Part shown: piece by piece, positions 20,362 to 42,072 of the stretch
How positions within the stretch are numbered: the first letter of the stretch is position 1
How the letters are laid out: each line of letters begins with the position of its first letter
Origin: Dactylonectria macrodidyma
Taxonomy: Eukaryota; Ascomycota; Sordariomycetes; Hypocreales; Nectriaceae
NCBI GenBank assembly: GCA_020744425.1
Contig: JAGMUV010000039.1
Span: 310,001 to 374,000 of the forward strand
Reading direction: 5' to 3'
DNA length: 64,000 nt
Notes under the pieces: generated by a model
The model's database searches: none
What the model saw: the letters and a program-made list of their open reading frames with translations, nothing else
Told to the model about the DNA's origin: nothing
Made by a program: the position numbers and the translations under genes

Positions 20362-20382
20362 TACGGTTGACTGTAGGGCTCA

Positions 20383-20556
20383 TGTCACGAGCTTTTGTCG
20401 TGTGAGGCACCTGATTGGGTGTGTGTATGTTCTTGATTGTGTCAAGTCCCCGCTCTGAGTCCCTGTACACCCTTTATGCTAAAATAGCTAGAAGGATATT
20501 GCTATAGCAGGCACACGCCATATACACGCCCTGCTACCCAAATACACATCGTGACA
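20383..20556 (-). repeat. Copia 1 3' LTR
   Basis: 174 bp, TG...CA, identical by eye to the 5' LTR at 25573-25746. Confidence 0.95.
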
Positions 20557-20591
20557 CACCCCCTTAGCCGAGGCCATTACCAAGGACTTGG

Positions 20592-23500
20592 CTACCCTAT
20601 AAATTGTCTTTTGGGTCTCTGCCCTCCTTGATATCCGAGTCTTGCCTCCTTATCAGGGCTGTTGCCTTCCTTCTGGCTGCGTGTTTTCGCAATCTGGTCC
20701 TTCATAGCTTCCATTCGCTGTTCCAGGGCAATCTGGTGTGAAATGTCCTCCATTTGAAGCATCTTAATGAATGTTGCATGCCGTTGCTTGGGCAGGGCCT
20801 TTGTCATCCCGTCTGCAATCATCTTCGATGTTGGGACCCAGCCGAACTCAACTCTCTTCTCCCTGTATTCTTGTCGTAACCAGTGTCGATGAATATCCAC
20901 ATGCCGAAGCTTCGTAGTCAACTTGGCTGATTCCTCAGTCAGGAGCCTAATTGTCTGGGCATTATCGCATTCAATATGCAATGGTCCGTCAATCTGAACT
21001 TCCAGCTCCTTAAGAATCCTGCTTGCGAAGATAGCTTCCTTAGCTGTCTGAGACAAAGCTAGCAATTCAGCTTCAGTGCTTGACGTAGTGACTGTGGACT
21101 GTTTTGTTGCTTTCCAGGCAATTGGTCCTCCAAACAGCATCATCACATAGCCTTGCGAGCTCTTCCTGTCTATTGTATTGTCTGCATAGGAAGCATCGCT
21201 TGCACATAGGAAGCTCTTGAGGAATCTTGTTCCTCCCAGCCTGATTCCCAGTGAACGTGTTCCATACAAATACTGCAAGACTCGGTCTGCGGCCTTATGA
21301 TGTGTCTGGTCTGGATTCTGATTGAACCTCGCTAGCCTTGCGGCTGCGAATGCAACATCGGGTCGTGTTGAGATTGATGCGAACAATATCGATCCGACTT
21401 TCTTCAAATATTTCTCGATTGAACGCCAGTCGGCTTGGCAGGTTGCTGGTAACAATTCTTCCTCTGTCATCGGAGTCTCGGGAACCTTGGTCTCTAGATC
21501 GATATCATACTGGTAAGCAATCTTATCGATATATGCATCTTGAGTCAGCCAGATAGATCGCTTAGCTCTGTTTCGTATGATGTGAATTCCAAGAAACCAC
21601 TTCGGTTCTCCCAGCACGGTCATGTTATAGGTCTGCTGTAGGCCTTCCATAGCCTTCTTTGCCCTGTCTGCCTTCTCCTTCTGGTATGCCCAGATAAGAT
21701 CGTCAACAAAGAAGAAGACAATCACTCCATCTTTAAGCATCACACAGGGTTCGTCGGGAACAGTCCTGAAGCCGAGGTCTCGGAGGGTTCGTGTCAGGTC
21801 TTGTTGCCATAAGAACGGAGACCTCCGTAGTCCGTAGAGCGCCTTCTGGAGCTTTAGAACTCTGCCGTACTTTTGGAATTCCGGTGGCATTCTCATGAAT
21901 ACCAGCTCATCTAGCTCGCAGTGTACGAAAGCATTTACAGCATCCATCTGCACGAGCTCCAGATCGTATTCTGCCGCTATTGCCATAAGCGCCCTGAAAG
22001 ACATGCTTGCAAGCGTTGTCGCTCGAGTCGGCAGATCTCCCCTAGCCTGTTGATTGCCGCAGACAACAAGACGGGCTTTGCACTTAACCAGGTATCCATG
22101 CTTGTCTGTTTTGTAGGTAAATACCCACATACAGCTTAGCACCTGTTGTCCTTTTGCCTGACGCCATGGCACTTCCACGAACGACTTCATCTGTTGGTGA
22201 GATGCCATATGTTCTTCTTGTGCTTTGCGGAACTGTTCTTTAAACGGGTGGTTGTCGAGATCCCTGAGAGTCTTCGGCTCCTCTGGTAAGTTTCGCTTAT
22301 GTATCTTCTCCGGCTTGAACTTCATTCTAGCGACGAAACTCCCATGATAAGCTGTCTCGATTGGAACTGGGACAAAGTCTTCCAAGCAGCTTTCTACGAC
22401 TGCAATTAGCGGAATATCTGCTCTCACCCCCTCAGCTCCAGCGACTGGTAAGAAGACTGAAAGCGCTGCATCTTGCTCCTGGTCTGGTTCAGTTGGTGGA
22501 GGTGTACATAATGCTTCCTCTAAAGCTCTTGCTAGTTCGTAGTCTTCTTTGTCCGCTTGGTCGTCCTGATATTCTTCTGGATCATTTTCTGGAACCATTT
22601 CTTCCCCGTCGTCACCCTGGTCTTCTTCATGGTTGCCAGATTCAAAGACTGGCTCATCTTCTTCAAGTACAGCTTGGTTGTTCAGCTGGCTTGGCGGAAT
22701 AGCGACCTTCTCGACCAGGTCATCAACGCTATCAATGAGTTCCTTTTCCGTACATTTGCCGTCAAAGAATGTGTCTTCGTCAAAGATAACGTCTCGAGTT
22801 GATATGACTTTTCCTTTGTGCGGGACCCAAACACGAAAGATGTTTGTCGAGTCATAGCCAACAAGATAGCCGATGTGCGCTCTTGGGTCAAGCTTGCGGA
22901 GCTTCTTTCGTTTGAGTTGCGCTCGTGAAGTCATGGCGTAGGCCCTGCAGCCATATGCCTTCAAGTGCGATAGGTATGGCTGTCTTGAGTAGAACAACTC
23001 ATAAGGGGTCTTCCACTCATTCGACTCTCGCGGTGTTCTGTTCTTCAGGTACACGGCTGCGCTGATTATTTCTCTCCAAAGACCATGCGGTATGTTGGCT
23101 GTGATTCTCATCACTCGGCTCTTCTCAATTACCGCACCCCCTGAGCGCTCAGCTCCTCCGTTCTGAGCTTGCGTATTTGGCGCTGATGGTTTCCCAATAA
23201 TGCCTCTCCACATCATCCAGTATTTAAACTTCTTAGTGAAGAGCTCATTGTCTGAGCGAACCACTTTAACCAGATAGCCATAGTGGATCTTCATCCAGTG
23301 ATAGAAGTGTCTCACTATCTTGCCGCTCTCTCGTCTGTCATACGTCTTGGTATAGTATGGAAAGACCATACCAGACCAGGCGTCTGTGATAAACATGGCT
23401 CGAATAAAGCCCTTCGCATCTTCATCGATGTCGGTCCAGTCAATCCAAATTTCGTAACATGGCTTGTCTTTTTCTCGGTCTGGTGGCCGTCGAGATATCT

Positions 23501-24188
23501 GCCGATGTATCTTCCCTTGGCTGCAGCCTGGACACTGCGTTGTCTTTGGTCCACGGAGTCGTATCCCTAGGGAATTCTTTCCCAAGTGATGCAATACTAA
23601 CGGACTTGGATGTCCCATTCGAAGATGCCATAAGGATCCAATCGCTACTGCTGGTGCCCTTGGATTTCGCGATGTTCTTCGCCTGTATTGCGTGCTAAAG
23701 ATAGCATCCTCAACGTCGCGCGAAATCTCTCGATACTGCAGTACGAATTGATTATGCATCTGATGGACGATGCATATGGTTGAGCCGTCCCTTCGGATTA
23801 GGAGGTTGTTGATAGTATCCCAAAAGATTCCGTTTTCTCGAAGCAATTGAAAGGATACTAGGTTCGTGCTGAAATCGGTACAATAGGTTGCGTTCCGTAG
23901 GCGCAAAATTCCAACTTTCCCTTCTGGAAGTGTGACCTCTAGGTCAACTCTTCCAAAACCTAGGATTGGAACTTCTGATGCTCCTGCAATAACTGCCTCT
24001 CCGTCTGCTGCCTTACGGAAGGTCTTAAACCTAGTCAGATCGTTAAAAATATGCAACGTTGTACCAAAATCCAAGATTGTTGATAAACGTAGCGGATACA
24101 CAGTAGTTGCAGAGGTAAAGGCTGATCGTAGGTGCGCTGTGTTCGCCGCTCCTATGATCTTCACTCTGGCCTTTCTCTCCTGTAATTG
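20592..24188 (-). CDS. Copia 1 Pol (protease, integrase, RT, RNase H), readthrough product
   Basis: The frame continues directly from gag after the TGA at 24189-24191 without an ATG nearby, so it is probably made as Gag-Pol by readthrough. Domains in order: protease with variant box LDFGTT (most are DSGA/T), GAG-pre-integrase zinc region (LWHLRMGHPS, CPGCSQGK), integrase core (IDWTDID, VRSDNE, QNGGAERSG), reverse transcriptase (LVQMDAVNAFVH, LYGLRRSP, FFVDDLIWAY) and RNase H (SDASYAD, SSTEAELLA, HVDIHRHWLR). About 1198 residues, uninterrupted. The protease Phe in place of Ser is odd; activity of that box is uncertain. Confidence 0.9.
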   Translation of the reverse strand, partial: QLQERKARVKIIGAANTAHLRSAFTSATTVYPLRLSTILDFGTTLHIFNDLTRFKTFRKAADGEAVIAGASEVPILGFGRVDLEVTLPEGKVGILRLRNATYCTDFSTNLVSFQLLRENGIFWDTINNLLIRRDGSTICIVHQMHNQFVLQYREISRDVEDAIFSTQYRRRTSRNPRAPAVAIGSLWHLRMGHPSPLVLHHLGKNSLGIRLRGPKTTQCPGCSQGKIHRQISRRPPDREKDKPCYEIWIDWTDIDEDAKGFIRAMFITDAWSGMVFPYYTKTYDRRESGKIVRHFYHWMKIHYGYLVKVVRSDNELFTKKFKYWMMWRGIIGKPSAPNTQAQNGGAERSGGAVIEKSRVMRITANIPHGLWREIISAAVYLKNRTPRESNEWKTPYELFYSRQPYLSHLKAYGCRAYAMTSRAQLKRKKLRKLDPRAHIGYLVGYDSTNIFRVWVPHKGKVISTRDVIFDEDTFFDGKCTEKELIDSVDDLVEKVAIPPSQLNNQAVLEEDEPVFESGNHEEDQGDDGEEMVPENDPEEYQDDQADKEDYELARALEEALCTPPPTEPDQEQDAALSVFLPVAGAEGVRADIPLIAVVESCLEDFVPVPIETAYHGSFVARMKFKPEKIHKRNLPEEPKTLRDLDNHPFKEQFRKAQEEHMASHQQMKSFVEVPWRQAKGQQVLSCMWVFTYKTDKHGYLVKCKARLVVCGNQQARGDLPTRATTLASMSFRALMAIAAEYDLELVQMDAVNAFVHCELDELVFMRMPPEFQKYGRVLKLQKALYGLRRSPFLWQQDLTRTLRDLGFRTVPDEPCVMLKDGVIVFFFVDDLIWAYQKEKADRAKKAMEGLQQTYNMTVLGEPKWFLGIHIIRNRAKRSIWLTQDAYIDKIAYQYDIDLETKVPETPMTEEELLPATCQADWRSIEKYLKKVGSILFASISTRPDVAFAAARLARFNQNPDQTHHKAADRVLQYLYGTRSLGIRLGGTRFLKSFLCASDASYADNTIDRKSSQGYVMMLFGGPIAWKATKQSTVTTSSTEAELLALSQTAKEAIFASRILKELEVQIDGPLHIECDNAQTIRLLTEESAKLTTKLRHVDIHRHWLRQEYREKRVEFGWVPTSKMIADGMTKALPKQRHATFIKMLQMEDISHQIALEQRMEAMKDQIAKTRSQKEGNSPDKEARLGYQGGQRPKRQFIG

Positions 24189-24191
24189 TCA
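24183..24191 (-). promoter_or_regulatory. Copia 1 gag-pol readthrough stop (TGA CAA TTA)
   Basis: Minus strand AAAGGGAACTGACAATTACA: the gag codons end ...AAC TGA, and the same frame continues CAA TTA CAG. CARYYA after a stop is the tobacco-mosaic-virus type leaky context. Candida Tca2 also separates gag and pol by an in-frame UGA. Function here is inferred. Confidence 0.7.
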
Positions 24192-25412
24192 GTTCCCTTT
24201 CTGTTCTTGCAAAGCATCAACCCTTCTCTGCAGCTCGTGGTCGTCTTCCAGCGCCTTCTTAGCCCTTCGCATACGACGATCGTTGCGAGGCATGCCCTCC
24301 GGTCTCTTATCTTCGAACACACACCAGCAGTCAGATAGGTCATGCCCTCTCATACCGCAGGCTGGGCACGTAAGTGCTGGCCTCTTTCCAGAGCGTCCTC
24401 CGGAGCCAGACTTCGTCCTCTTCCCACCCTTTGGCGTGGATGCCTCCTCACTGTGGTCACTCTCCTCGTTGCCTCCCTCTGTGTGGAACGCCCCGCCCCT
24501 CACGGTGTTACCACTCGTGGGCCTCTTGCGGGATGCCCATTCACGCATTGTCGAGGCAACCTCTTGAGGTGTCCAAACCTTTGAGCCATTGGGAGCAGGT
24601 CGCTGTACGCCCGATGCAATCAGGTCAATACCTCCTGGTCTAGATTGGGAATCTGATTCTAAGGTTTCACTCCCACTGCTTGTGTGGAGTCGTCGCTGCT
24701 CAGCCGCTTCTGCTTGGGCAGTCTGGTGGGCGAGCGCATCTTGGAGGCGTCTTCTCTGAAGAACTGCTTCGGCATCTAGAATCTTGGCCCCCTCCGTGAA
24801 AGCTGTTGCATAGCTTTGATGGATTGGTTCAATTAGGTCAGCGAACTCTCGAAGCCATTGACCGGTCTCAGTCTCTGCTAGGTGATACTTCTTTGCCTTG
24901 ATCATCATCGATTCCCACGATTCAAGCCATTGTGGGAAGGCTTTCTGATTCTTAAAGCCTTTCATCACGGCAATATATTCGTCTTTCACCTTAGCCATCA
25001 TGAAGCCTTCTGATGGAGCAGCAGAGCTCTTGAGCAGCTGCATCCACTCTCGCAGTGTGTCTTTTCTGTCGAGCGGTTGCCTGAACTTTGTCGAAACTGT
25101 CTCCAGGATAGTATCGTATACCGTATTGATCTCTGTCTCCTGCTTTCCGAAGTCCCGCTTCCTGACTTCCCATTGCCTAAACACAGCATCATACGCTCGC
25201 TGCTGCGACGGTGATAGCTGGGTATAGTCTGTAGCAGTAGTGTTAAAGTCGCTATACTGAGGCTCTCTTGGTTCTTGCAAGAGTTCCCCAATAGGGTGAT
25301 CAGGGTGCATGTAAGACCATATCTTCCTTGGAGTCTTGGCTGACAGGGACTGAATCCACGCATCCCATTTTTCCTTCCCAGTCAAGATCACTCTCTGGTC
25401 TTTTGACGTCAT
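24189..25412 (-). CDS. Copia 1 Gag
   Basis: A 407-residue protein that would form the particle shell. The central part resembles the UBN2/gag region of Copia elements. The C-terminal CCHC knuckle is CPACGMRGHDLSDCW (near residue 350), preceded by a basic stretch. The start at 25412 follows TTTTGACGTC and is the first ATG of the frame. It ends in TGA followed by CAATTA, the leaky-stop context CARYYA. The pol frame continues in the same register after that codon. Confidence 0.9.
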   Translation of the reverse strand: MTSKDQRVILTGKEKWDAWIQSLSAKTPRKIWSYMHPDHPIGELLQEPREPQYSDFNTTATDYTQLSPSQQRAYDAVFRQWEVRKRDFGKQETEINTVYDTILETVSTKFRQPLDRKDTLREWMQLLKSSAAPSEGFMMAKVKDEYIAVMKGFKNQKAFPQWLESWESMMIKAKKYHLAETETGQWLREFADLIEPIHQSYATAFTEGAKILDAEAVLQRRRLQDALAHQTAQAEAAEQRRLHTSSGSETLESDSQSRPGGIDLIASGVQRPAPNGSKVWTPQEVASTMREWASRKRPTSGNTVRGGAFHTEGGNEESDHSEEASTPKGGKRTKSGSGGRSGKRPALTCPACGMRGHDLSDCWCVFEDKRPEGMPRNDRRMRRAKKALEDDHELQRRVDALQEQKGN

Positions 25413-25560
25413 ATTCGGATCGGCCGGAACGGACGGTATCGATCGATTTTGACCGCGTCACGACGTATTCTATCTGAACAACGATGGATATCGGCCCTTC
25501 GAGGTCTGGCTCGATGCAAATCGTGTTGTTGCTGTCTTTTTCAATGGAATTGTCGCGAAC

Positions 25561-25572
25561 CGGGCTCATAAC
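25561..25572 (-). promoter_or_regulatory. Copia 1 primer binding site (half-tRNA initiator Met)
   Basis: Directly inside the 5' LTR the minus strand reads GTTATGAGCCCG. Its complement CGGGCTCATAAC matches the anticodon stem-loop (CAU) of eukaryotic initiator tRNA-Met. Drosophila copia is known to prime from a 5' half of this tRNA cut in the anticodon loop; use here is inferred from the match. Confidence 0.75.
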
Positions 25573-25746
25573 TGTCACGAGCTTTTGTCGTGTGAGGCAC
25601 CTGATTGGGTGTGTGTATGTTCTTGATTGTGTCAAGTCCCCGCTCTGAGTCCCTGTACACCCTTTATGCTAAAATAGCTAGAAGGATATTGCTATAGCAG
25701 GCACACGCCATATACACGCCCTGCTACCCAAATACACATCGTGACA
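25573..25746 (-). repeat. Copia 1 5' LTR
   Basis: 174 bp, the same sequence as 20383-20556; followed by the GCTCA duplication. Confidence 0.95.
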
Positions 25747-26186
25747 GCTCACTGTCTCAAAACCCAAATCTCACTAGCTGCACACTACAGGCGTGTACAG
25801 GCCCGATCACATATTGAATACAGACGTGTACAGGCCTGTTCACATATTTAATATCCTTCAAACCGAATATATGACGTCAACGTACTCCAATTGCAGCATT
25901 GGCGATAATTTGAATACACCCATTTACAGTCGTGTACAGACCGTTACAGCTGTAAAGCAGGTGTATAAAGATTTTTCTTTTTTTAGGGCGCGCAATTGAA
26001 ACTCTTCGTGCTACAGATTTTTTTTTGTTTTTTTTTGAACTTCGACTACAGGCTCATACGCGACCAAACATCGCCAAACATCGCTCAACATCGCTCAACA
26101 TCGCCTGCCGCAGCTCCACGTTCACGATCGCACAACACCACGACTTCGCGCATACACGTTCGTACCCGCCTGTACCGCACCAAACA

Positions 26187-26683
26187 ATGGCGTCCACCGG
26201 TCAACACGCCCTCAAGCTGCCGATTCCCTGGTCAAATTCATGTACGGCGAGGAACTCGAGGACAAGAAGGCGTGCAAGAAGTGCAAGGACAATACTGGTA
26301 TATTCAATGCTTATGTGACATTGAATGCAATGTCTCCGGGTTGTGCCTCCTGTCACTATGGTAGTCAGGCCAAACACTGCTCGCTTGTGACTGGTAAGTT
26401 CCATACATGCCTGTACGCGTCTGATCAAGGCCGATCGCTAATAGTTACAGATGTCGAGAAGCGATCCCGCGATGACTCCTCCTCCGACGACCATACTTCC
26501 AAGCGACAGAAGAAGAAAAAGGAATCGGGCAAGAAAAAGAGCAAGAAGGAAAAATCTGGCCAGGACTATACTACGAAGGACATTACTGACGCGCTCAAGA
26601 GTCTGGACCAGAAATCACTTCGCACCATGAAGAATATCTTCGAAGCTCTTCTGGATGGCGATGTTCTTAGCGATAGTGATTAG
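26187..26683 (+). pseudogene. six-cysteine family gene Z1 (outer gene of element 1)
   Basis: The reading frame 26240-26683 contains CKKCKDNTGIFNAYV and, 15 residues later, CASCHYGSQAKHC: CX2C and CX2CX7C motifs likely to bind zinc. One expected cysteine between the two motifs is absent. A 57-bp intron (26394-26450; GTAAGT...TACAG) follows right after the last Cys. A Lys-rich tail and an acidic end (GDVLSDSD) come next. The nearest ATG (26187) is in another frame, so a frameshift or an unseen upstream exon is needed. Z2 and Z3 share the Cys pattern and the intron position. Function unknown; DNA or protein binding is a guess. Confidence 0.6.
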
Positions 26684-26869
26684 TTTAGTTCTGATCAGCT
26701 GCGAACATAGCAGTACAGGGACATATGGGCTTGGCTTTCTGAAGATTTGAGTATAAGGATTAGTATAGTCCTGATGAGTTACGAATACAGCTGTAAAGAA
26801 ATATACAGACTCAACCTTTAAAAAATAATTAAATTTTTCTATGTTTTCTAAAAATTAATATATAAAGTG

Positions 26870-27185
26870 ATAATGTTGCATCTAGGATATGGAAGTGATC
26901 ATGTGTGTGAGAAGCTCTTGCTATTCTTCCTATCTAATGAGGGTCTTTGGGTCAGTCTTATAGATGAAGAGACTGATGATGACCTCGGACAGCCAAGACG
27001 GTCTGGATGCTACGGACTATTTGACTTTATCTAGCTATCCTCCTGATCATAGCTTGTGACGAAGCTGATGACGAGGCCAGTGACGAGGAAAGTGGCTGTG
27101 GAACCTTATGATGAAGGGCAGAAAGCTTGACTGTTGTCATAGCTGCAAAATCCAATATCCCGATATGTGACAGATAGCTTAGATA
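26870..27185 (+). repeat. repeat C, left copy (degenerate coding-like)
   Basis: The segment from TTGCATCTAGGATATGG to CCCGATATGTGACAG is matched in inverted orientation by 38285-38612. One frame is conserved in both (LHL..G.DH.CEKLL.FFLSNEGL then SLIDEE) but is broken by stops downstream. It follows a six-cysteine gene in both arms of element 1. I do not recognise the protein. Confidence 0.7.
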
Positions 27186-27353
27186 TTTTAACATTTTATA
27201 TATTCTTATTATATTAAACATTAAAAATATAAATAATTATATTTTATAACTTATAGATATATTTTAATTTAATTATATATATAAAATAGAAATAAAATTA
27301 ATATTTATATTATTTTATTTTATTAAATATAAATATATATATATATATATATA
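27186..27353. other. AT-rich spacer
   Basis: Almost entirely A and T with TATATA runs; no coding frame. Similar AT-rich stretches occur at 28470-28597 and inside the two MITEs. Confidence 0.7.
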
Positions 27354-27399
27354 ACGTACATAATAAGCGAGCTGACTGCACAAGCGAGCCGATCACTAT

Positions 27400-27622
27400 T
27401 GTCAGATACGTCAGAGGTGCAAGCTGCATAAAGAAGCCTGTTACGTTTATCATCTGCTGAGGCAGCGGCCCGGTCTCAAAGGCCCGGATCCTTTAGTTCC
27501 GGTCTTAAAAGAACCTTATTGTAGACCCTATGATGATAAGTGCATCTCTATATAAAAAGGCCGCTGCGAGTCCTCTGTTAAAGAGCGGGGAATAGAGATA
27601 ACATTCAATCTAATATTTGATA
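27400..27622. repeat. solo LTR in MITE A (TGTCAGATACGTCAG family)
   Basis: It begins TGTCAGATACGTCAGAGGTG, contains TATATAAAAAGGCCGC and ends TTTGATA. ACTAT flanks both sides (27395-27399, 27623-27627). The uninterrupted MITE B confirms the empty-site sequence. It is related to the copy at 5719. Confidence 0.85.
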
Positions 27623-27987
27623 ACTATACTGTACAGCTAAAAATAGCAATGTCAGATTTTCTAAAATAGGCCATATAATTATTAAAAATATAAAAAAATT
27701 ATTTTTAGATATCTTATTAAAAAAGTCATAAGATAGTATTTTTTAAAGATTTTTAATTAATTTATTAAGCTTTCTATTTATAAAAAGCAGAAAAAACACA
27801 GTATATATAAGCTTTTTCTTTATAACTATATAAATAAAAATAAATAAAATTTAGGAAATTTTGATTTTATAATTTCGTATTTAATTAACCTTATTTCAAA
27901 ATTGCAGTTATTTTAGGACTGGTTTGGAATTTTTTTGAATTTTCTTAGAATTGCGATTTAAGGTGTAAATCTGAATGATCGGCTCGC

Positions 27988-28450
27988 TGTGACGGTCAAG
28001 GTTCCCAACGTAGTAAACCGTAACCCGACTGGTTTATGTTGGCAGCTGAAACGGGGCGTAACGTACTGAGCGTGGGGTGGCGAATCACGTCTGATAATGT
28101 CAAGAAGTATTCTTGAGTAATCAAATTGTATTGAAAGCTGGAGAGCTATCTGGACATAGGGAAGTGGGAATGAGTGAAGCTATATATACTATTCTGGTCT
28201 GCTTGGTCAATCGTGGCCGAACGTGCTCTTGTTCGACCTGTTCGACCATTTAAGGTTAAGGTTTCAATGGGAGCGATGGAGCGCGAGGAGCGTTGCTCCC
28301 TCGTTCCCATCGCTCCTGTCGCTCCATCGCTCCTTCCCTGATTCGCCCGTGAGGCTGACTCATCAGCCTCGCCGCTTGGTTCTCAAGGTCCAAGGGTTTT
28401 GCCACCCTTCGCCACTTGGTCCCTTGGACGCCTTAGCTTGGGTCGTGACA
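27988..28450. repeat. solo LTR in MITE A (463 bp, TGTGACGGTC family)
   Basis: Starts TGTGACGGTCAAGG, ends TTGGGTCGTGACA, with a perfect CTCGC duplication at 27983-27987 and 28451-28455. Contains a local inverted repeat GGGAGCGATGGAGCG / CGCTCCATCGCTCC. LTR ends resemble those of the intact Gypsy nearby (TGTGACGGGA), but the body differs. Confidence 0.9.
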
Positions 28451-28631: not shown

Positions 28632-28824
28632 TGTGACGGGAGCGTCTGGAGTGCTGGACCCAGGGTGGGGCCGATACGTAACTAGGACGCACGGGGCAGG
28701 CCACAGGGACTATCAACGCGTCTACGCGTCTACGCGCCTGCCCGCTTTCTCTTTCCTCTTCATCGTAGTATTTTCGCAATACAGTGGCATTACCTCTTGA
28801 GTTGATCTCATCTGGCCCGTGACA
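28632..28824 (+). repeat. Gypsy 5' LTR
   Basis: 193 bp; contains ATCGTAGTAT at 28762-28771, complementary to the primer site, which may mark the transcript start (R region). Confidence 0.95.
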
Positions 28825-28826
28825 TT

Positions 28827-28836
28827 ATACTACGAT
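28827..28836 (+). promoter_or_regulatory. Gypsy self-priming primer site
   Basis: ATACTACGAT three bases inside the 5' LTR is the exact complement of ATCGTAGTAT at 28762-28771 in the LTR. In Tf1 and related chromodomain elements the 5' end of the RNA folds onto such a site and is cleaved to prime reverse transcription. The match is seen; the mechanism is inferred. Confidence 0.7.
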
Positions 28837-28990
28837 CCTTTATTCTTTCCACCTACATCTTGATTAACTCTGACGCGCGTCAGTGCGAGGTTAATCGTCG
28901 CGTCGGATCCGACTATAGATCCGCCTACCTGCAGCGAGACGCAGGTACGAACAGCAAACCACCGTTGACTGGAACCAATCAGCAGTCGAC

Positions 28991-30484
28991 ATGACCAGGA
29001 GCTCTGAGTTGGGCGCGTGGAGCGCTGACAAAGAGGGCATCGATAAGGCACGCCAAGAGAGCGCCTTTTATCACCAGGTCCAGCAGTACCTCGCTGAGTC
29101 CGTAGACGAGGACAGCGAAGGGACTACCAATACAGAAGACGACGAAGGGATATCTATCAGACCTTTCGCGCGACTCGCAGCAGATTCTATCGAAGAAGAT
29201 TTGAACGCTCGAACCTGCGAGATCACGGACAACGGCCGATCCACAGTCTACGTGAAAGACCAGGACGGGAGATTCAGGAACCTCCCGATCGATGCCGACA
29301 ATATCGAATCGATGGTCCAGAAATACCCTGAGGTGCGAGCCTCGATAATTCGCAATTTTGCCGAGCAATTGGCAATCAGAGGGCAGCGAGACGAGCTTAT
29401 CGAGCTGCACAATAAGCACGTCGAGACGACCGAGCGACTCATTAAAGAGCACAATGAGGCAATTGAGGCCGAAGCGATGGCCCACGCCGAGGTGGCACGG
29501 ATCAATAAGGAACTGGCACGGTTGAAAGCGGCACAGCATACTGTCCCTCTCCGCGAAGACACGCCTCTCGGGAGCGAGACAACGGCCGAGACCAAGCTGC
29601 GCCGGAAGCGGGAGAGTGACCCACCCGAGCTCGATGATGGCAAGGAACCGGACTTCGAAGACTGGCTCATCAAGGCCAGACGCAAGCTGCGACGCGACGG
29701 CCCACGAGACTACCCTGAAGAGGAGGACAAGGTATATTATATTTTCGGTCGTTGCAAGGGTATCGCGGCTGCCTATTTACGCCCCCGCATGCCCGAGAAC
29801 GCGGAGGAAGACGCCTTCGAGACCGCTGAAGATGTCTTCCAAGCCCTGACGACCCTCTTCCGGGACAAGAACAAGAAGATCAAGGCGCGAGAGGAGTTCA
29901 AGGCCTTGAGATACTATACCAATGGTAGCTGGCGTAGCTTCTACGTCAAGTTCTTGGCTACAGCGAACGACGCTAAGATCCCCAAAAGGGATTGGAAGGA
30001 AGAGCTCTATGACAAAGTGCCAGTGGAGATGAAACGTACTGTGGCTACGCAGCGCTTTGCCGAAGAGGTAAGCTTCGACACCTTTGCGGCAGCGCTTGGC
30101 GACATCGCGGTAGTAGAAGAGGCCTATGCGAAGACCTTAACGAAGAAGGACAGCAAGAAGACCAGCAAGTTACAGACCAGCAAGAGCGATAGTGCTGCTA
30201 CTGGGAAGAAGGACACTAAGAAGTCGGCAACTCCAACACCCAAGTACTCAAAGACCAAGATTGACAGCAAATGGACTTTTAAGGACCCAGAGGTCCGCAA
30301 GCTAGCCGAAGAAGGGAAGTGCTTCAAGTGCAAGAAAGTCGGCCATACCCACCAGGAGTGTCCGGAGGGGGGCGAAGTGAACGAAGTTCGTGCCAAGGCT
30401 AAGAAGGCAGGGCGGACGGTTACTATTATGATCCCTGATGAATCAGATGAGTCGTCCTCCGAGTCGGAAAAAGACGAGTCCTAG
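28991..30484 (+). CDS. Gypsy Gag
   Basis: 497 residues that would build the particle. A coiled coil (about 125-190) precedes the capsid-like retrotransposon gag region (about 225-390: FEDWLIKARRKLRRDG, FQALTTLFRD, EFKALRYYTNGSWRSFYVKF). A Lys/Ser-rich linker leads to one CCHC knuckle, CFKCKKVGHTHQEC (about 443-456). The end is acidic/Ser-rich. It stops with TAG at 30482, and pol is open in the -1 frame from about 30456, giving a short overlap. Confidence 0.93.
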   Translation: MTRSSELGAWSADKEGIDKARQESAFYHQVQQYLAESVDEDSEGTTNTEDDEGISIRPFARLAADSIEEDLNARTCEITDNGRSTVYVKDQDGRFRNLPIDADNIESMVQKYPEVRASIIRNFAEQLAIRGQRDELIELHNKHVETTERLIKEHNEAIEAEAMAHAEVARINKELARLKAAQHTVPLREDTPLGSETTAETKLRRKRESDPPELDDGKEPDFEDWLIKARRKLRRDGPRDYPEEEDKVYYIFGRCKGIAAAYLRPRMPENAEEDAFETAEDVFQALTTLFRDKNKKIKAREEFKALRYYTNGSWRSFYVKFLATANDAKIPKRDWKEELYDKVPVEMKRTVATQRFAEEVSFDTFAAALGDIAVVEEAYAKTLTKKDSKKTSKLQTSKSDSAATGKKDTKKSATPTPKYSKTKIDSKWTFKDPEVRKLAEEGKCFKCKKVGHTHQECPEGGEVNEVRAKAKKAGRTVTIMIPDESDESSSESEKDES

Positions 30485-33400
30485 GGGAAGTCTCCTCTCT
30501 AGGACCTGAATTGCAGTCACTGATCTTTGACGAGAGCTCGATCAACATGGATGAACTACTCGGCGGGGAGAAGCTCTACCGTCCCTGTACGATAGCAAGT
30601 TCAGGGTTGGCAATTAAAGTCAAAGGTCTATGTGATACCGGAGCGGATGGTTATGTCTTTGTGAATAAGGATCTAGCCCTAAGGATGCACCAACAACTGC
30701 AGAGCCGTCGAATCCTAATCCCGGGGCGGGGACTCGCCGTCAAGGGATACAAGGGCGGACGACAACGGATTACCCACATCACGGTGGCAACGCTGGATAT
30801 AGATGGCAGACGACAGCCAAATTGTCCGATGTTGGAACTCGGGATGCATCAGGACCTGATCATTGGGAGGAAGTGGTTCGAGAAGCACGACGTGGAAATC
30901 TCTGCCAAACATCGCCGCCTACGATGGCCTGACGACAGGCCGAAGGATTACCCTAGTAGCGATATTGTGATACCGATGTCTTCGTTGAAGGGCCCTCGCT
31001 GTTCAAGGCCAGCGGACCAGGCCGACATGGAACGACGCAACCAACTGAGCGCAGAACGAAAGAAGGCCCGCGAGGATCGGATCCTTAGGAGGGGAGATCG
31101 CCCGCCAAGGAGGCAATGGTCGGATGACGCCAAAGAGAACATGGCTAAGATGGACAGGGCATTGAGGGATACGGCGCCCTCTCTCCCGATGAGGGACTTC
31201 AATACCGAGCTAGCGATGATCGAAGCCGACCTGCCACAGCGACCAATGATTAATACTGAGGGAGTCACAATCGAAATCAGTATCGTTAGTGCCAGCAGGT
31301 GGCAGGAGAGGGTGGTCAAGCAGGAGGACACCGAATGGATCGGTGAAGTCACCCTCCAGGAGATCGACAAGATTATCGAAGAACGACTAGAACGGAGAGA
31401 AGCCGGAGGGGAGAACCTTCGTAAAGATACGCCCGAATTGAGGGAGAAGGTAGAGTCAAAGTTACCTCGACAGCACTTACACCTGCGACATGCCTTCTCC
31501 AAGGCTGAGTCTGACGCCTTGCCACCCCACCGGCCAGGCGTTGACATGAAGCTGGAATTGAAAGAGCCAATCCCCGACAGTCGGAAGGTCCCGCCAATGT
31601 ACAAGTTGAGCCTCGAACAGCTAGAGGTGATGAGGAACTATATCGAGGAGCATCTGCAGAAAGGATTTATCGTACCGGCAGGTGACGCGCCATACGCATC
31701 ACCAGTCCTGTTTGCAAAAAAGAAGAACGGCGGATGGCGTTTCTGTGTGGACTACAGGAAGCTCAACGAGTTGACGGCGAAGGAACATTGTGCACCACCC
31801 CTGATAGAAGAAACCCAGTCGAGGCTGGCAAAGGCAAAAGTATTTACGAAACTCGACATCCGACAGGCCTTCTATCGGATGCGGATGTCCCCGGAATCCG
31901 AGGATCTCACAGCCTTCAAGACTCGGTATGGCACCTACAAGTATAAGGTGGTACCGTTTGGTCTGACCAACGGCCCTTCGCACTTCCAAGCTTACATCAA
32001 CCACGTCCTGATGGATCTCCTAGACGTCTGCTGCACGGCATACATCGACGACATTCTCATTTACTCAGAAAACGTCAAGGACCACGAAGCGCACGTTAAT
32101 GCAGTCTTGGAACGACTGGTCGCAGCAGGGTTGCAGGCAGACATCGACAAGTCAGAATTCTATGTTACAGAGACGGAGTTCCTGGGCTTTATAATTACGA
32201 CAAACGGGATCCGGATGGACCCGAAAAAGATGAAGGCCATTATAGACTGGGAAGAACCAACAAACGTACGGGGAGTACAGGCCTTCCTTGGGTTTTGCAA
32301 CTTCTACCGAAAGTTCGTCGAGTTTTACAGTCGGATAGCGCGACCGCTTACACTGTTGACGAAGAAGGGGATCCCATGGAGGTGGACTGAAGAGGAGACG
32401 ACCGCGATGAAGGCTATGAAGTTGGCGATTTCGTCGGCCCCGTGCCGGGCCTGGTACGACCCTCTCCGTGATACGATCGTCGAGACCGACGCGTCAGGAG
32501 GTGTGGTGGCTGCAGTACTAACCCAGAAGAGCGAAGACGGGGACTGGCACCCCGTAGCTTTCTTCTCCAAGACGATGAACGACGCGGAGATGCGTTACCC
32601 GATTCACGACCAGGAGATGCTCGCAGTGGTATTGGCCTTGAAGGAATGGAACGCCGAGCTCTTGGGGCTCCAACGGCAATTCTTGGTTATTACTGACCAC
32701 AAAGCCCTTGAGTACTTCTCGACTAAACAACGCCTCAATGGCAGGCAAGCGCGGTGGGCGGACGACCTGGCACCTTATGACTTCAAGATCACCTACCGTC
32801 CGGGGCGAGAGAACGTTGTAGCGGATGCTCTGTCTCGGAAGTCGTCCGAACTGGCTACGCAGAAGGCGCGACGAGAAGCCGCGTGGAACAGGGTACTGCT
32901 GAGTCGGGACCTGGTGATTAGCTCCATTGACTATGAGGTCATGGCCGGCCCCTGCACCGAACCCGTTTCCGGGGAAGGGCCAGAGGTGGCATTGATCGGG
33001 GCCGAAGCTGTCGAGTCCTCGGTCAGCTCTGGAAGAGAGGCTATCCGAGCGCCAGAAGGATGGAAGCTGCTCGACGCCGTCCTCCGAGCTAATAGGGCCT
33101 CTCCCCAGTCGCTGCCCTACCGAGAGAACGCAGAGAAGAAGGCCGATGGTTGGACGATGAACGAAGGTGTGGTTTGCCGGAACCAGCGCATTTTTGTTCC
33201 GGACGAAGGTGTTCTCCGAACGCTGGTTATCAAGGAGAACCACTGCAAGCTTAATGTAGCCCACCCGGGACGCAACAAAACCGTCAGATTGGTTGCCGAG
33301 AGGTTCTGGTGGCCGGGCTTATCGGCTGATGTCGATCGGTTCCGGGCAAATTGTAAGCCGTGTGGAAGAGCTCACGCTAATAGAGATAAGACCCCCGGGT

Positions 33401-34674
33401 TGCTACACCCATTGGAAGTCCCACACCGGATATGGCAGCATGTGACAACAGACTTCCATTACATGCCTAAGGACAAGAACGGATACGACTGCGTGTGGGT
33501 AGTTATTGATCGGCTCAGCAAGATCGCTTTTTCTATACCTTGCTACCGGACGGTGACAGCGAAGGACGTCGCGTATATGTACTACCACCACGTCTACCGT
33601 GTTTTTGGGGTGCCGGAGACGGTGACGTCAGACCGAGGACCACAGTTTATCGCCGCCTTCATGGATGAGCTATGCAAGCTTATCGGGGTGAAGCAGAAAC
33701 TGAGCACAGCAGAGCACCCCCAGACAGACGGGAACACTGAGATCTACAACCAGTACTTGAACCACCGACTACGACCGTTTATCAACCATTACCAAGACGA
33801 CTGGAGTGAACTACTACCGTCGATGGACTATGCGCAGATGAATCTCTACCACGAGTCACTGGGTATGGAACCGGTGAGACTGTTACTCGGCCACTTGCCC
33901 CGATCCCAACTCGACTGGGATAAGAGAACCGACCTTGAGGGCTGCAAAACAAAAGCTGAACGTTTGTCGAGGGAGGATGCCCAGCAGTATGCCAAGCGGA
34001 TTGCGGACTCCATCAAAGTTGCTAGGCAGAATCTCCACCAGGCGCAGGAACGGCAGATCCGCCAAGCTAACAAGAAGCGCCGGGAACCGGATTTTACGGT
34101 TGGGAACAAAGTCTGGGTCGACATGCGCGGACTTACGAGTACAAGACCCAGCCAGGCGTTAGACTGGAGGAAGAGAGGGCCATGGACTATTGTGGAACAA
34201 GTCGGGCATTCATACCGCCTGGACTTACCCTCCTCGTGGCACATAAACCCAACTCTACACGCGGATCGGTTGCGGCGTTATCCCGACAATCCTATGCCAG
34301 GGCAGGATGAGGACCCACCACCACCTGAAGTCATCAACGGCGGCAAAGAGTACGAGGTTCACAAGGTCAAGGAGTCGCGGTACAATAAGCGCGACAAACA
34401 GCTCCAGTATAGGGTAGACTGGGTCGGACACGACCCCGACGATGAATGGTACCCTGCCGAAAACTTCAAGAACGCACCGATGCGACTGAAGGAGTTCCAT
34501 GAGGAATATTCGGAGGCACCTGGGCCACCGAAGCGATTACAGGCCTGGGTCGACGCGGCTGCTGCGGATACGGACGTACCGGAGCACCCTGACGATAATC
34601 AACCGATCAAACTGGGCCGGGGGCCCAAGAAAGCACGACGGAAACGAAGAGTCTTCGTCATCTGGCGATCGTGA
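30457..34674 (+). CDS. Gypsy Pol (protease, RT, RNase H, integrase, chromodomain)
   Basis: The frame is -1 relative to gag and overlaps it by about 28 nt, so Gag-Pol probably arises by frameshifting. A GGAAAAAG run lies in the overlap, though not a textbook heptamer. Domains: aspartic protease (CDTGADGYVF), reverse transcriptase (LDIRQAFYRM, YIDDILIYS), RNase H (VETDASGGV, HDQEMLAVV, TDHKALEYF), integrase with HHCC-like zinc region (HPGRNKTVR...CKPCGRAH), core (TTDFHYMP, TSDRGPQF, EHPQTDGNTE) and a C-terminal chromodomain (YEVHKVKESRYNKRD, YRVDWVGHDPDDEWYP). About 1390 residues, no interruptions. The chromodomain suggests targeting to methylated-histone chromatin, as known for chromoviruses. 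Confidence 0.93.
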   Translation, partial: LRVGKRRVLGEVSSLGPELQSLIFDESSINMDELLGGEKLYRPCTIASSGLAIKVKGLCDTGADGYVFVNKDLALRMHQQLQSRRILIPGRGLAVKGYKGGRQRITHITVATLDIDGRRQPNCPMLELGMHQDLIIGRKWFEKHDVEISAKHRRLRWPDDRPKDYPSSDIVIPMSSLKGPRCSRPADQADMERRNQLSAERKKAREDRILRRGDRPPRRQWSDDAKENMAKMDRALRDTAPSLPMRDFNTELAMIEADLPQRPMINTEGVTIEISIVSASRWQERVVKQEDTEWIGEVTLQEIDKIIEERLERREAGGENLRKDTPELREKVESKLPRQHLHLRHAFSKAESDALPPHRPGVDMKLELKEPIPDSRKVPPMYKLSLEQLEVMRNYIEEHLQKGFIVPAGDAPYASPVLFAKKKNGGWRFCVDYRKLNELTAKEHCAPPLIEETQSRLAKAKVFTKLDIRQAFYRMRMSPESEDLTAFKTRYGTYKYKVVPFGLTNGPSHFQAYINHVLMDLLDVCCTAYIDDILIYSENVKDHEAHVNAVLERLVAAGLQADIDKSEFYVTETEFLGFIITTNGIRMDPKKMKAIIDWEEPTNVRGVQAFLGFCNFYRKFVEFYSRIARPLTLLTKKGIPWRWTEEETTAMKAMKLAISSAPCRAWYDPLRDTIVETDASGGVVAAVLTQKSEDGDWHPVAFFSKTMNDAEMRYPIHDQEMLAVVLALKEWNAELLGLQRQFLVITDHKALEYFSTKQRLNGRQARWADDLAPYDFKITYRPGRENVVADALSRKSSELATQKARREAAWNRVLLSRDLVISSIDYEVMAGPCTEPVSGEGPEVALIGAEAVESSVSSGREAIRAPEGWKLLDAVLRANRASPQSLPYRENAEKKADGWTMNEGVVCRNQRIFVPDEGVLRTLVIKENHCKLNVAHPGRNKTVRLVAERFWWPGLSADVDRFRANCKPCGRAHANRDKTPGLLHPLEVPHRIWQHVTTDFHYMPKDKNGYDCVWVVIDRLSKIAFSIPCYRTVTAKDVAYMYYHHVYRVFGVPETVTSDRGPQFIAAFMDELCKLIGVKQKLSTAEHPQTDGNTEIYNQYLNHRLRPFINHYQDDWSELLPSMDYAQMNLYHESLGMEPVRLLLGHLPRSQLDWDKRTDLEGCKTKAERLSREDAQQYAKRIADSIKVARQNLHQAQERQIRQANKKRREPDFTVGNKVWVDMRGLTSTRPSQALDWRKRGPWTIVEQVGHSYRLDLPSSWHINPTLHADRLRRYPDNPMPGQDEDPPPPEVINGGKEYEVHKVKESRYNKRDKQLQYRVDWVGHDPDDEWYPAENFKNAPMRLKEFHEEYSEAPGPPKRLQAWVDAAAADTDVPEHPDDNQPIKLGRGPKKARRKRRVFVIWRS

Positions 34675-34730
34675 GAATTTGACAACTTGCGCTCACGCGG
34701 CCGTTTTGAGCGCCTTGAAGAGGGGGGTGA

Positions 34731-34923
34731 TGTGACGGGAGCGTCTGGAGTGCTGGACCCAGGGTGGGGCCGATACGTAACTAGGACGCACGGGGCAGGC
34801 CACAGGGACTATCAACGCGTCTACGCGTCTACGCGCCTGCCCGCTTTCTCTTTCCTCTTCATCGTAGTATTTTCGCAATACAGTGGCATTACCTCTTGAG
34901 TTGATCTCATCTGGCCCGTGACA
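34731..34923 (+). repeat. Gypsy 3' LTR
   Basis: 193 bp, identical by eye to the 5' LTR; preceded by the G-rich polypurine tract. Confidence 0.95.
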
Positions 34924-35403
34924 CAGTGAGTGGATCACTTATACTGTACAGCTAAAAGTAAAAATATTAGATTTTCTAAAACTAGCTCTATAATTAATAA
35001 AAATTTAAAAAAATTAATTTTAAAATTTATATAAAAAAAGTCATAAGATATTATTTTTTTTAACTTTTTAATTAATTTATTAAGCTTTTTATATATAAAA
35101 TTAAGAAAAAATACAGTGTGAATAGACTTTTTCTTAATAACTCTATAAATAAAAATAAATAAAATTTAGTAAAATTCTTTGATATAATTTCCTACTTGGT
35201 TAAGTTAATTCTAAACTCTCAGGTATTTTAGTCTTAGTTTGGATTTTTAATAATTTTTCTAAAATCGCGCTTTAAGGTGTAAATCTGACTGATCCACTCA
35301 CTGATTTGATCCACTTGCTGATGAAGTACGTTATTCTATTTAATCTATACATTCTCCATCTTTCCTTCTAAATTTTCTTTCCCCTCTTTCCATTCTATTC
35401 AAC

Positions 35404-36980
35404 ATGCCTCGGCCCCGAATAGACCTCACCCCTCTCCGTCAGGATATTACTATATTAATTGATGAAGATACAACAATCTCAAATATTATACTTTCTCTTT
35501 CTACCAATTACAACATCCAAGTCAGTCGCGCAGTTCTTTACCGATTTCTACAGAAATGGGAACTCCTCCGTCAACGGCGTACAGTTGACACTGAACCTCT
35601 ACGAGAGCGAATCAAGTCAATGTTCTTTGATGAGTGTTTAAAAGATGCTATTATCTTACGCCGGCTTCAAGATGAGGGGTTCAGTTTAAGCTTAACTGGA
35701 CTTTGCAAGATCCGTCGGGAACTTGGTCTTTTCAGACGACAAGATGATAACCAGCTTCAAATAGCTCAAGAACTTGCACGAATCTTCTTTCATGATGAGT
35801 CTCAAGTCTCAACTGTTATCCAAAACTATGGTCGAGGCTATCTTTACACGTACATGCGGCAACAACATCACATCATCAGTCGCGATGCATTGTACAATGT
35901 TTATCGAGACTTTGCACCTGAAAGCATTACTGATCGATGGGGTAAAGCACGTTTTCAACGTCGTGACTTTATTGTTCCAGGGCCTGACTGGGTATGGTCC
36001 CTTGATGGTTATGATAAGCTTAAGCAATGGGGCTTTGAGATCTATGCTGGTATTGATGGGTATGCCCGATATATTACATTGGTTTTACTGTGGATATTCT
36101 GCTGCAACAAGTTGGAACGTTGCCTTACAGTATCTATCAGTTCTGCGGCAACATGGTATGATGCCACGAGCTATTCGATCTGATCATGGAGGGGAAACAG
36201 CTTTGATGTGTGGCTTACATTACTTTCTTTCTGGGAATAGAAAGAAACGACTTGGAACAGAGTTAGTTCCAATTGAGTTTAAGGATTGTTGGTTTTTTGG
36301 ACGAAGTATTCATAATACTCGAATTGAGAGCTGGTGGCATCGGCTTTATCAAGCACGTGGAGGATCGTGGAGGGTAAGTTTCTATTATTCCTTATTGAAC
36401 TTTACTAATTCTCTTCGATTAGATATACTTCCAATGGCTGACAGAAAATGGGCTCTTTGATGGTGGCTCTCTTCCTGATCGCATTGCCATTCTATTCATC
36501 TTCATGAATCCAATCCGACATGACTTGATCTCATTTATACGAGTCTGGAATAGCCATTCTATTCGCCGTCAAGCCAATCGACCACATGTTCAACCTGGAC
36601 AACCCTCAGTTCTATATCATGATCTCAATTCAGAGACTGCACGGAACTTTGCTGAAGAGATTCCACCTGATCGATTCAGATTCTGTCAGGAAACCTTTGA
36701 ACTTGATCAATCTGATCTGGATGCTTTCTTGCCAGAAGAAACAATGTCTATTTGTCAAGATATCATTACAACGACAATTGGCTCTTTACCAGAAATTTCG
36801 AACGTTGTCACACATCCACTTTTAGATGAGTACAATCTTCTACGAGGTGAATTGGCTCTTTATATTCAGAATGGGAATTCACCACGACTATCCTTACTTG
36901 ACCGACCTCGAGATGGGCGAGATCGACTTAGTCAAATTCTACAGGCTCAGAATATTGACATTGAAGTGTTTGATTCATAG
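35404..36980 (+). pseudogene. integrase-like DDE transposase of element 1 (one frameshift)
   Basis: About 510 residues. An N-terminal helix-turn-helix-like region (SRAVLYRFLQKW) leads to an integrase-type core: SLDGYDKLKQWGFEIYAGID (first Asp), IRSDHGGETAL (second) and RIESWWHRLYQ (Glu). Helical C-terminal region follows. A 49-bp intron (36374-36422; GTAAGT...GATTAG) joins in frame. One extra base near 36083 (ACATTGG for ACATGG) shifts the frame in the middle of the core; no other lesion seen. The gene at 42073-43795 is a full-length homologue with the same layout. It is expected to cut and join the element ends. It ends 43 bp from the convergent accessory gene. Confidence 0.85.
36374..36422 (+). 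other. intron in element 1 transposase
   Basis: GTAAGT donor, TACTAAT branch-like motif, GATTAG acceptor; removal joins GGSWR to a sequence reading YFQWLTENGLFDGG. Confidence 0.85.
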
Positions 36981-37023
36981 ATAGCAGCTGATTAATAAAG
37001 GAAAAGACTTGAGAAGATTGAAA

Positions 37024-38193
37024 CTACTTACGCTGGTGAGTTACCATACTTAATGGAGGCAGTGGCTGTTTACTGCCAGTCTTCCGCCCTGTACTAATTA
37101 CATCTTCCTCAATAACTTCTCTACTTCCATCATCTGATATAAGTGCCTCCAAATCCTCACTACCTTGCCCAGCCACTTCTATAACCATATTATCTTGTCC
37201 ATTCAAATCCGATCCATCCACATCAGTATCGAAGAATGCAGCTAAGTCATCTTCTTCATTAGACTTCTCTAGTAAGACCAATATCTCCTCCATTTTCTTG
37301 TCTACCTTTACCTTCTTATCTGTTGCTGGAGCTGATTGTGTAGATGCCTTTCGTTTGCGATTAATTGGAGATTGTGTTGGGGGTTTGTTTTGTATTGGAA
37401 GAGATAGATCCTTTTCGCCCTTGACCTTCTTCTTTCGCACTGGAACAGGGGTGATCATGTTATCTTCCTCCTCTTTCGCTTCATAAGCATAAAGAAGTGA
37501 CAGATTGACCCTGGTTGGATGCGGACTTTGAGGATTGATTGCATTGAGAAATGCAGCAAGAGAAGTTGTCTCTAGAACTTCCTGAGAAAAGAAAACAATA
37601 CTTTGCGAACTGTTACTGGTGCAACCAGAAATGAACTCCCAGTCAACGGCCCGATATGTTGCATCAGTTGTTGCACGTGCAGCAACTGATCTCACAAGGT
37701 CCGCATGTGAAGGATAGTTATGTGTTGCGTTTGTAACAAAGCAATTGCCAACTCTCCCAGCGATAGTAGGAGATCCAGACTGCCACTTCCTGATATCCAA
37801 TTGACCGCTTGATATACACTTATATGCTGCTGTATATAAGGTAATTGCCAACTCAATGGGTGTATTGGGTATCGACTTCGTTCGGGTAGCTTGAGCGTGG
37901 AGACTTCGGCTTTGGTTGCCTTGATTGACAGCGGATTCCAGTTGAGCAGGATTATAGGAAGGGATAGTCATTGCAGGTGCAGGTGCATGTTGGAGTCGTC
38001 GTGATCGTGCGTGTGTAGGTGGGATTGGGCTGTCTTCAGTCAAATCGACCATGTCAATTTGAGGATTGGCAGAAGAAGGAAGAGTTAAAGGTATAATATT
38101 CTCTCCACAGAAATAACAACGAACCCAGTCTGGGTTTAACTCCAATACAACGGAATGGAGATAACCCTTCTTGGAACAGATTGCGGAATTCAT
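37024..38193 (-). CDS. accessory protein of element 1 (unknown function)
   Basis: 389 residues, open, start ATG at 38193. The N-terminus has C-X(n)-H then CYFCGE, a possible zinc-binding site. A SUMO-interaction-like MVDLTEDSP (about 47-55) follows, then a proline-rich linker, a folded central domain (about 105-245) and a basic NLS-like stretch (RKKKVKGEK, NRKRKAS). The C-terminus is acidic. It converges with the transposase with 43 bp between stops. Element 2 has the same arrangement with a diverged partner (40586-41960). I do not recognise the family; a DNA-binding or transposase-assisting role is inferred from conserved pairing. Confidence 0.7.
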   Translation of the reverse strand: MNSAICSKKGYLHSVVLELNPDWVRCYFCGENIIPLTLPSSANPQIDMVDLTEDSPIPPTHARSRRLQHAPAPAMTIPSYNPAQLESAVNQGNQSRSLHAQATRTKSIPNTPIELAITLYTAAYKCISSGQLDIRKWQSGSPTIAGRVGNCFVTNATHNYPSHADLVRSVAARATTDATYRAVDWEFISGCTSNSSQSIVFFSQEVLETTSLAAFLNAINPQSPHPTRVNLSLLYAYEAKEEEDNMITPVPVRKKKVKGEKDLSLPIQNKPPTQSPINRKRKASTQSAPATDKKVKVDKKMEEILVLLEKSNEEDDLAAFFDTDVDGSDLNGQDNMVIEVAGQGSEDLEALISDDGSREVIEEDVISTGRKTGSKQPLPPLSMVTHQRK

Positions 38194-38284
38194 GGTTAGG
38201 AATAATAAAGAAGGATTAAGTTAAATTATTTGCGTACGCAAAAATTTTCACATTAAATACAGAGAATATTAGCACTAATGACTG

Positions 38285-38612
38285 TCATATATCGGTATAT
38301 CGGATCTCAACGGCTACTGCGGAAGTGAAGCTTTTCCTTCTATCATCATAGGCGTCCATCGCCACCTGCCTCGTCACCAGCCTCGTCACCAGCCTAGCAT
38401 TTCCTTCATTCAGGTCAATAGCTAGATAAAGCCAAGACCCCGAAGCATCCGGAGCCTCTCGGCTGTCCGAGGTCATCCGAGGTCATCATCACTTTCTTCG
38501 TCTATAAGACTGACGCAAAGACCCTCGTTAGATAGGAAGAATATCAAGAGCTTCTCACATATATGATCATTTCCATCAGCTAGATGCAACATGACTCATC
38601 ACCTGTAATCGT
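38285..38612 (-). repeat. repeat C, right copy (inverted)
   Basis: Inverted homologue of 26870-27185, ending at ATATATGACAG on the minus strand. The same CEKLL.FFLSNEGL frame is readable, then a 63-codon open frame (38476-38285: SGSWLYLAIDLNEG, VTRLVTRQVAMDAYDDRRKS). Lies just downstream of Z2, as the left copy lies downstream of Z1. Confidence 0.7.
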
Positions 38613-38619
38613 AGACTAG

Positions 38620-39202
38620 TTACTCTTCGGGTTGTGTGGAGCTAAGTTCCTCTTGGATCTTAGCTCTTTCAATTAGATCTGCTCCAAATGCACGTAGTTG
38701 ATCAGGTGTAGACTCCTTCACGATTTTCTCTATTATGGATCGAGATGACTGTGTTTCTTTTGGCCGATCTAATTTATTCTTATTAGTATTTATTATATAA
38801 AGAAAGGTTCAATAACTTACCATGATATGAACATCGAATTCCTCTCGATGAATATGTGCAGTTCGCACATGCGCCAGCAGCAATATCACTCTTAGTGATA
38901 CACCCTTCAAAAATGCCATTTCCTCTTGCACATTGCATACAGGAAGGTGTGCGTAAAGTCCCATAAATATAGATGAGTAGTGCATCAATATTCTGTGTAC
39001 GGGTTAGGTCAAGGCCAGTTGATGAAGACCGCCCTTGTCTAGCTCGTGTATTCAGCTGTAAAAGACGGCTCTCTGTTGCCTGCTCTTGACATCTTATCAC
39101 CTTTGCAGGCCGTAGCAATTGCGCCTTTGTAAGAGCCCATGACGTGAGTGCAGCTTTGTTTGATGGCTGCTTGGCAGTTGCGGAGTTAATTGGAGGTGAC
39201 AT
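38620..39202 (-). CDS. six-cysteine family gene Z2
   Basis: Two exons (39202-38821 and 38768-38620) around a 52-bp intron (GTAAGT...ATTAG). The first exon encodes a basic/Ser-rich region, then CMQCARGNGIFEGC and, after 10 residues, CANCTYSSRGIRC: a CX2CX8C...CX2CX7C arrangement likely to hold zinc. The intron falls four codons after the last Cys. The second exon gives a short helical tail (STPDQLRAFGADLIERAKIQ). About 176 residues, no lesions. It faces inward from the right end of element 1. Function unknown; related genes are Z1 and Z3. Confidence 0.7.
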
Positions 39203-39440
39203 ATGGAATACAGTTGGTGTTTTTGCTGATATGTATTGATGGAGAATGTGACAGGGAAAAGATGACGTGTACAGGAGGAAAAATTGCTGTATGACCTTGT
39301 ATATGGAATATTCATCTTGCTTTAATTGAATATTCATGTAATTGGGGTTTTCAGGCATATGTAGATACGCTAGGGTGGCTCTAATGATGAAATTTTTTGG
39401 AAAAGGGGTTTTGAGACAGTGAGCCCTACAGTCAACCGTA

Positions 39441-41960: not shown

Positions 41961-42072
41961 GGATAATGCCGTCGAAGGAATCCCCCCGGCCCACTCAACA
42001 CGTTTTAGGGGCACGAAGATCCCCATGACCTTTGCCTCTCGACCTAGAAAGAGAAGAGATTGACTATTCAAG

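Follow-up and report, generated by a model that had tools for sequence, protein, structure and literature searches.

In the 64,000-nt stretch of the Dactylonectria macrodidyma genome analyzed here (the window; contig JAGMUV010000039.1, positions 310,001 to 374,000), two parts of a LINE lie on either side of a long interval, which raises the questions of whether this interval is one mobile element, to which kind it belongs, and how it came to its present place. An earlier note, made from the sequence alone, took it for a single giant TIR element of an unfamiliar type. The features discussed below are collected in Table 1.

Table 1. Positions of the features in the window, with the handles of copia sites elsewhere
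Feature	Position or site	Strand	Remarks
LINE 3' UTR and tail, one half of the split LINE	19916..20356	-	Other LINE copies
Target site duplication CAGCC, left copy	20357..20361	.	Read directly; second copy absent from LINE copies
Left TIR, outer 21 bp, TACGG..	20362..20382	+	100% complementary to 39420-39440
Ty1/copia in left TIR	20383..25746	-	Identical LTRs 20383-20556 and 25573-25746 (174 bp); duplication GCTCA
Left TIR, inner part	25747..25765	+	Begins with the 5-bp copia duplication
Left DUF3716 gene, remnant	26190..26683	+	PF12511 E=1.3e-9; ~296 bp absent relative to copy L030
Gypsy retrotransposon	28632..34923	+	Identical LTRs 28632-28824 and 34731-34923
Transposase gene (PF24764)	35404..36980	+	Predicted intron ~36374-36422; frame broken
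Accessory gene, convergent with transposase	37024..38193	-	Open, 389 codons; Cys/His motif, IDLT-type motif
Right DUF3716 gene, open	38620..39202	-	PF12511 E=3.4e-13; one predicted intron ~38769-38820
Right TIR, 35 bp	39406..39440	-	Compared with other copies
Target site duplication CAGCC, right copy	39441..39445	.	Read directly
ORF2 end of the split LINE	39446..39806	-	Other LINE copies
Copia sites in IS3EU TIRs	Window 20383-25746; L002, L003, L008, L067, L068, L077, L079, L081, L090		
Copia sites beside TGTTGGATTGACCCC LTR	L074, L076, L080, L085, L087, L091, L093, L095, L098		

A single insertion split one LINE

The two ends of the interval are perfect inverted repeats over 21/21 bases, TACGG at the left and CCGTA at the right, and CAGCC stands on both sides, as the earlier note had read them. 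The left TIR was visible to that reader as only ~20 bp because a copia element sits after base 21; the repeat continues beyond it, and uninterrupted left-type 35-mers occur 10 times elsewhere in the genome. For the LINE, 40 matches were listed and 6 fetched, one of which was the window itself. In all five other copies read, the window flanks are contiguous and overlap by the duplicated bases only, which confirms that the flanks are two halves of one LINE. When they are joined with one CAGCC removed, the frame reads ..ATNRLDADQRHR-stop; the ORF2 end is thus uninterrupted as claimed, but the stop comes seven codons past NRL, not eight. With the same ends in other copies (see below) and the LINE flanks adjacent, the claim that a single TIR element split one LINE holds.

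Copies of the element and its inserted retrotransposons

The complete terminal 301 bp of the right end were found at 13 genomic sites, the window included, with 99-100% identity, and one further copy is in two pieces. Nine copies of the window's family (family A) have both ends; their spans range from 5,601 bp (C42) to ~23.5 kb (C47:140404-163949), the latter, like family B on C19, being counted as one element by position only. "Giant" is right in part: the window copy (20362-39440) spans 19,079 bp, but it is swollen by the copia (5,364 bp) and gypsy (6,292 bp) elements and has 7,423 bp (~7.4 kb) of its own DNA. AT-rich repeats also lie within the interval. The gypsy position is common to the window and a sister copy on C19 (L029), being occupied by a complete element in the window and by a solo LTR in the sister.

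Five-base-pair duplications across families

We read 22 end pairs from four families (A, B, C, and D). An exact 5-bp duplication that could not be extended to 6 bp was present in 14 of them (families A, B, and D), and no pair in the four families had a 6-bp duplication. The remaining eight comprised two with one mismatch, two with swapped flanks (family C), and four without a duplication. By family, exact duplications were found in 5/9 end-paired copies of A (CAGCC, GCCTT, GCCGG, CGTAC, and GTCAG; the others being one with a mismatch and three without duplication), in one of the two pairs of B (the other with one mismatch), in none of the three pairs of C, and in all eight pairs read of D (GGTGG, GCACC, AGGTG, ACAGC, AACGG, GACGT, GTTCC, and GAACC), a count that leaves out further D ends without a partner. 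The duplication length, which the earlier note singled out, is the feature that departs from the published pattern, with 5 bp in 14/22 pairs where published IS3EU elements usually have 6 bp. Two inverted copies of family C, G000:C47:10618-15560 and 41488-46430, each carry the other's 5-bp flank (ATTAA and ATAGG), suggesting that recombination between them may have inverted the intervening DNA.

The transposase

An integrase-like DDE gene inside the element was also proposed, and several lines of evidence support it. Two of the three transposase ORFs in the window matched PF24764 (rva_4) above the cut-off, as did many loci in the genome. In an alignment of 41 transposase proteins (3 from the loci and 38 of 43 found, five being left out), D201 and D260 were invariant and E308 was present in at least 90%. 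The predicted structure (pLDDT 79, pTM 0.40) contains an integrase core, and its best Foldseek matches, which have low global TM-scores, include the DDE integrase cores of IstA, TnsB, and the RSV and PFV integrases. The transposase ORFs gave no match to H2C2 (the HHCC zinc motif), and the region before the core is predicted as helices. The rve domain (PF00665) was not listed for the window ORFs at E values up to 1; several homologues also carry it.

The frame of the window transposase is shifted by one base at a point between its first two catalytic aspartates. Among 13 rows covering this position, the frameshift occurs only in the window and in the C19 sister, and these two copies share 1,577 bp of identical transposase sequence, frameshift included, with different duplications (CAGCC and GCCTT, respectively). 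Intact copies exist, 6/8 translated transposase copies being open.

Other transposases lie nearby. A second, different IS3EU-type transposase occupies 42245-43936 (-), open over 563 codons (PF24764 E=8.8e-23), and open copies similar to it were found on C19, C44, C40, C20, and C4; no ends could be located for it. At 47523-48800 and 49936-51012 are a DDE_Tnp_1_7 (piggyBac-type) transposase ORF and a nearby hAT dimerisation ORF.

DUF3716 genes and the accessory gene

The two inward-facing six-cysteine genes of the earlier note proved by PF12511 to be two DUF3716 genes. The left one is a remnant, and the corresponding gene of copy L030 itself holds a stop. The accessory gene does run towards the transposase as described; its protein had no Pfam match above the cut-off and a weakly predicted ubiquitin-like domain.

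DUF3716 zinc-finger genes accompany several IS3EU families. They lie within 5 kb at 43/89 merged rva_4 loci, the other 46 having none, and 47/70 DUF3716 hits are within 5 kb of rva_4, at least one of these neighbors belonging to an adjacent element (window 42641-43216). The number expected by chance is ~1 by simple arithmetic, in which copies of one family are not independent. In all six gene comparisons pN was below pS, and, dS being saturated in five of them, selection can be gauged only roughly in strength. Since divergent families carry the genes at comparable positions and the encoded proteins are conserved, the sequences suggest that the DUF3716 gene or genes and the convergent accessory gene encode helper proteins of the element rather than chance cargo. 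A Seiridium protein (P0028) joins DUF3716 and PF24764 in one chain.

A DUF3716 protein of Ilyonectria destructans is 99% identical, and relatives of the accessory protein include one that is 99% identical and one from I. robusta that is 83% identical over 55% of the query; a recent transfer between genera is possible. Four DUF3716 hits (C77:1769088, C7:514160, C3:951968, and C35:232709) lie on contigs without a listed rva_4 hit and are possibly host genes taken over from transposons. The name DUF3716 was not found in the literature searched, and its association with transposons offers a first hypothesis for this Pfam family.

Copia insertion sites

The copia element in the left TIR led to an observation of its own. 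Of 29 copia sites tallied, 10 fall inside the TIRs of IS3EU elements, at a distance of 20-35 bp from the outer end, and are spread over several families and TSD positions; this share is likely inflated, because the query held 21 bp of TIR and 40 of 146 candidates were scored. The copia elements in TIRs all have one orientation, none of 43 downstream flanks had a TIR end, and three family B sites at one position may be inherited. At nine other sites, copia lies 25 bp (in one case 26) upstream of another LTR beginning TGTTGGATTGACCCC, the start of which has 47 exact matches in the genome, and at one (L083) it lies 23 bp from the TGTTGG.. LTR on its other side. Neither an IS3EU TIR nor this LTR was present at the remaining 9/29. 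The tally is a partial list, in which two sites on C20 may be one element and five have one outer flank missing. It looks as though this copia seeks out the termini of other mobile elements. Seven copia sites (L069, L071, L079, L080, L087, L093, and L094) have an LTR-5 bp-LTR arrangement, as if a second element had re-used the same 5-bp target.

Interpretation and alternatives

Taken together, 20362-39440 is very probably one member of a multi-copy DNA transposon family, most likely in the IS3EU/GingerRoot superfamily, an assignment based on PF24764 membership and on published descriptions of the ends, TIRs, and core. Its integrase-like DDE transposase is predicted to excise the element at the TACGG..CCGTA termini and to paste it into the target with a 5-bp stagger; we infer the cut-and-paste mode, since neither an excision footprint nor a strain pair was seen. 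The lineage of the window copy likely already carried the gypsy element at its last move, because the sister keeps a solo LTR in that position, although the order of events is again one that we infer. That last move was likely powered in trans by intact relatives, because the copy's own transposase is frameshifted and the same broken copy sits at two differently duplicated sites. On the simplest reading, transposase made elsewhere mobilised a broken copy already loaded with the gypsy element, and the window and its C19 sister would illustrate in nature how a broken element is relocated, most likely in trans, while carrying a 6-kb retrotransposon.

We considered three other readings. A Ginger2/TDD-type element, whose duplications are normally 4 or 5 bp long (PMC10045372), would account for the duplication length, and PF00665 in several homologues would suit it; however, the window ORFs match rva_4 with rve unlisted, TAYGG..CCRTA ends with TIRs of >30 bp are given for rust IS3EU (PMC12730594), and TA..TA ends are constant in the complete IS3EU families (PMC10045372), so that we consider this type very unlikely. 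A new superfamily, as first proposed, is highly improbable: 5-bp duplications recur in three related families and the accessory gene lacks a Pfam match above the cut-off, but in the other structural features tested the element conforms to IS3EU, and changes of TSD length within a superfamily are known (hAT5, hAT6, and hAT7). Unrelated elements abutting by chance with coincidental ends, an idea to which the copia, gypsy, and AT-rich repeats of the interval might lend color, are ruled out by the same ends and internal DNA in nine end-paired copies, the window included, and by the uninterrupted LINEs (5/5 read at the insertion point).

The transposon is real, well bounded, and multi-copy, most likely belongs to the known IS3EU/GingerRoot superfamily rather than to a new kind, and comes from a lineage that makes 5-bp duplications. 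TSD length serves to fingerprint superfamilies; a 5-bp lineage, once supported, within a group that usually makes 6 bp would show that the stagger of IS3EU can shift by a single base, and surveys with the TSD fixed at 6, such as the Styx survey, could miss 5-bp elements. A more far-reaching idea, which we put forward only as a long shot, is that a fungal IS3EU lineage shifted from a 6- to a 5-bp cut and uses a three-part kit, in which the transposase is joined by one or two DUF3716 proteins of GATA-like type and by a convergently encoded protein that bears a Cys/His finger, an invariant SUMO-binding-type DLT motif, and a ubiquitin-like domain. This last protein would then recruit or imitate the host SUMO machinery at the transposon ends.

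Comparison with known systems

The claim of an unfamiliar type was not borne out, as PF24764, the TACGG..CCGTA ends, and the >30-bp TIRs fit IS3EU/GingerRoot, which has already been reported in fungi. As published, complete IS3EU families always have TA..TA ends and a TSD that is usually 6 bp, not stated to be invariable, and IS3EU/GingerRoot transposases have a DDE core without HHCC, the first catalytic D lying 100-300 residues from the N-terminus (PMC10045372). Our element agrees in its TA..TA ends (all four families have TACGG..CCGTA, with one L033 end being TATGG), in its first catalytic D (D201), and in its core without HHCC, but differs in its 5-bp TSD; in their parts cited here, PMC10045372, PMC12730594, PMC10853768, and PMC11645255 describe no 5-bp IS3EU. 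Ginger2/TDD, with an integrase-like core and 4- or 5-bp duplications (Kojima and Bao; PMC10045372), resembles it by description. Among the DNA transposons of Colletotrichum lupini, IS3EU ranks first in abundance (PMC11645255).

Rust IS3EU elements have TAYGG..CCRTA ends, TIRs of >30 bp, and 6-bp duplications (PMC12730594), which our ends and TIRs of 35 bp (families A and D) or ~39 bp (family C) resemble. TET-positive IS3EU elements, known from rusts and Tuber indicum (PMC12730594), likewise have an accessory gene opposite in orientation to the transposase; they differ in the 6-bp duplications of the rusts and in their TET/JBP and alpha-kinase genes, neither of which was matched in the ORFs scanned here.

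Styx, an IS3EU element of Zymoseptoria, is 7.9 kb long with 36-bp TIRs and 6-bp duplications; it carries extra genes with GATA and CCHC motifs and DUF3577, its degenerate copies are reported to be trans-mobilised, and it is tied to rearrangements (PMC10853768). It shares with our element the IS3EU transposase, a TIR of nearly equal length (36 versus 35 bp), and, probably, movement of degenerate copies in trans and a link to rearrangement, and its GATA and CCHC genes can be likened, by motif description only, to the DUF3716 (CX2C..CX2C) and Cys/His accessory genes here. It differs in its DUF3577 gene, a domain for which the ORFs scanned here gave no match, and in its TSD of 6 bp rather than 5.
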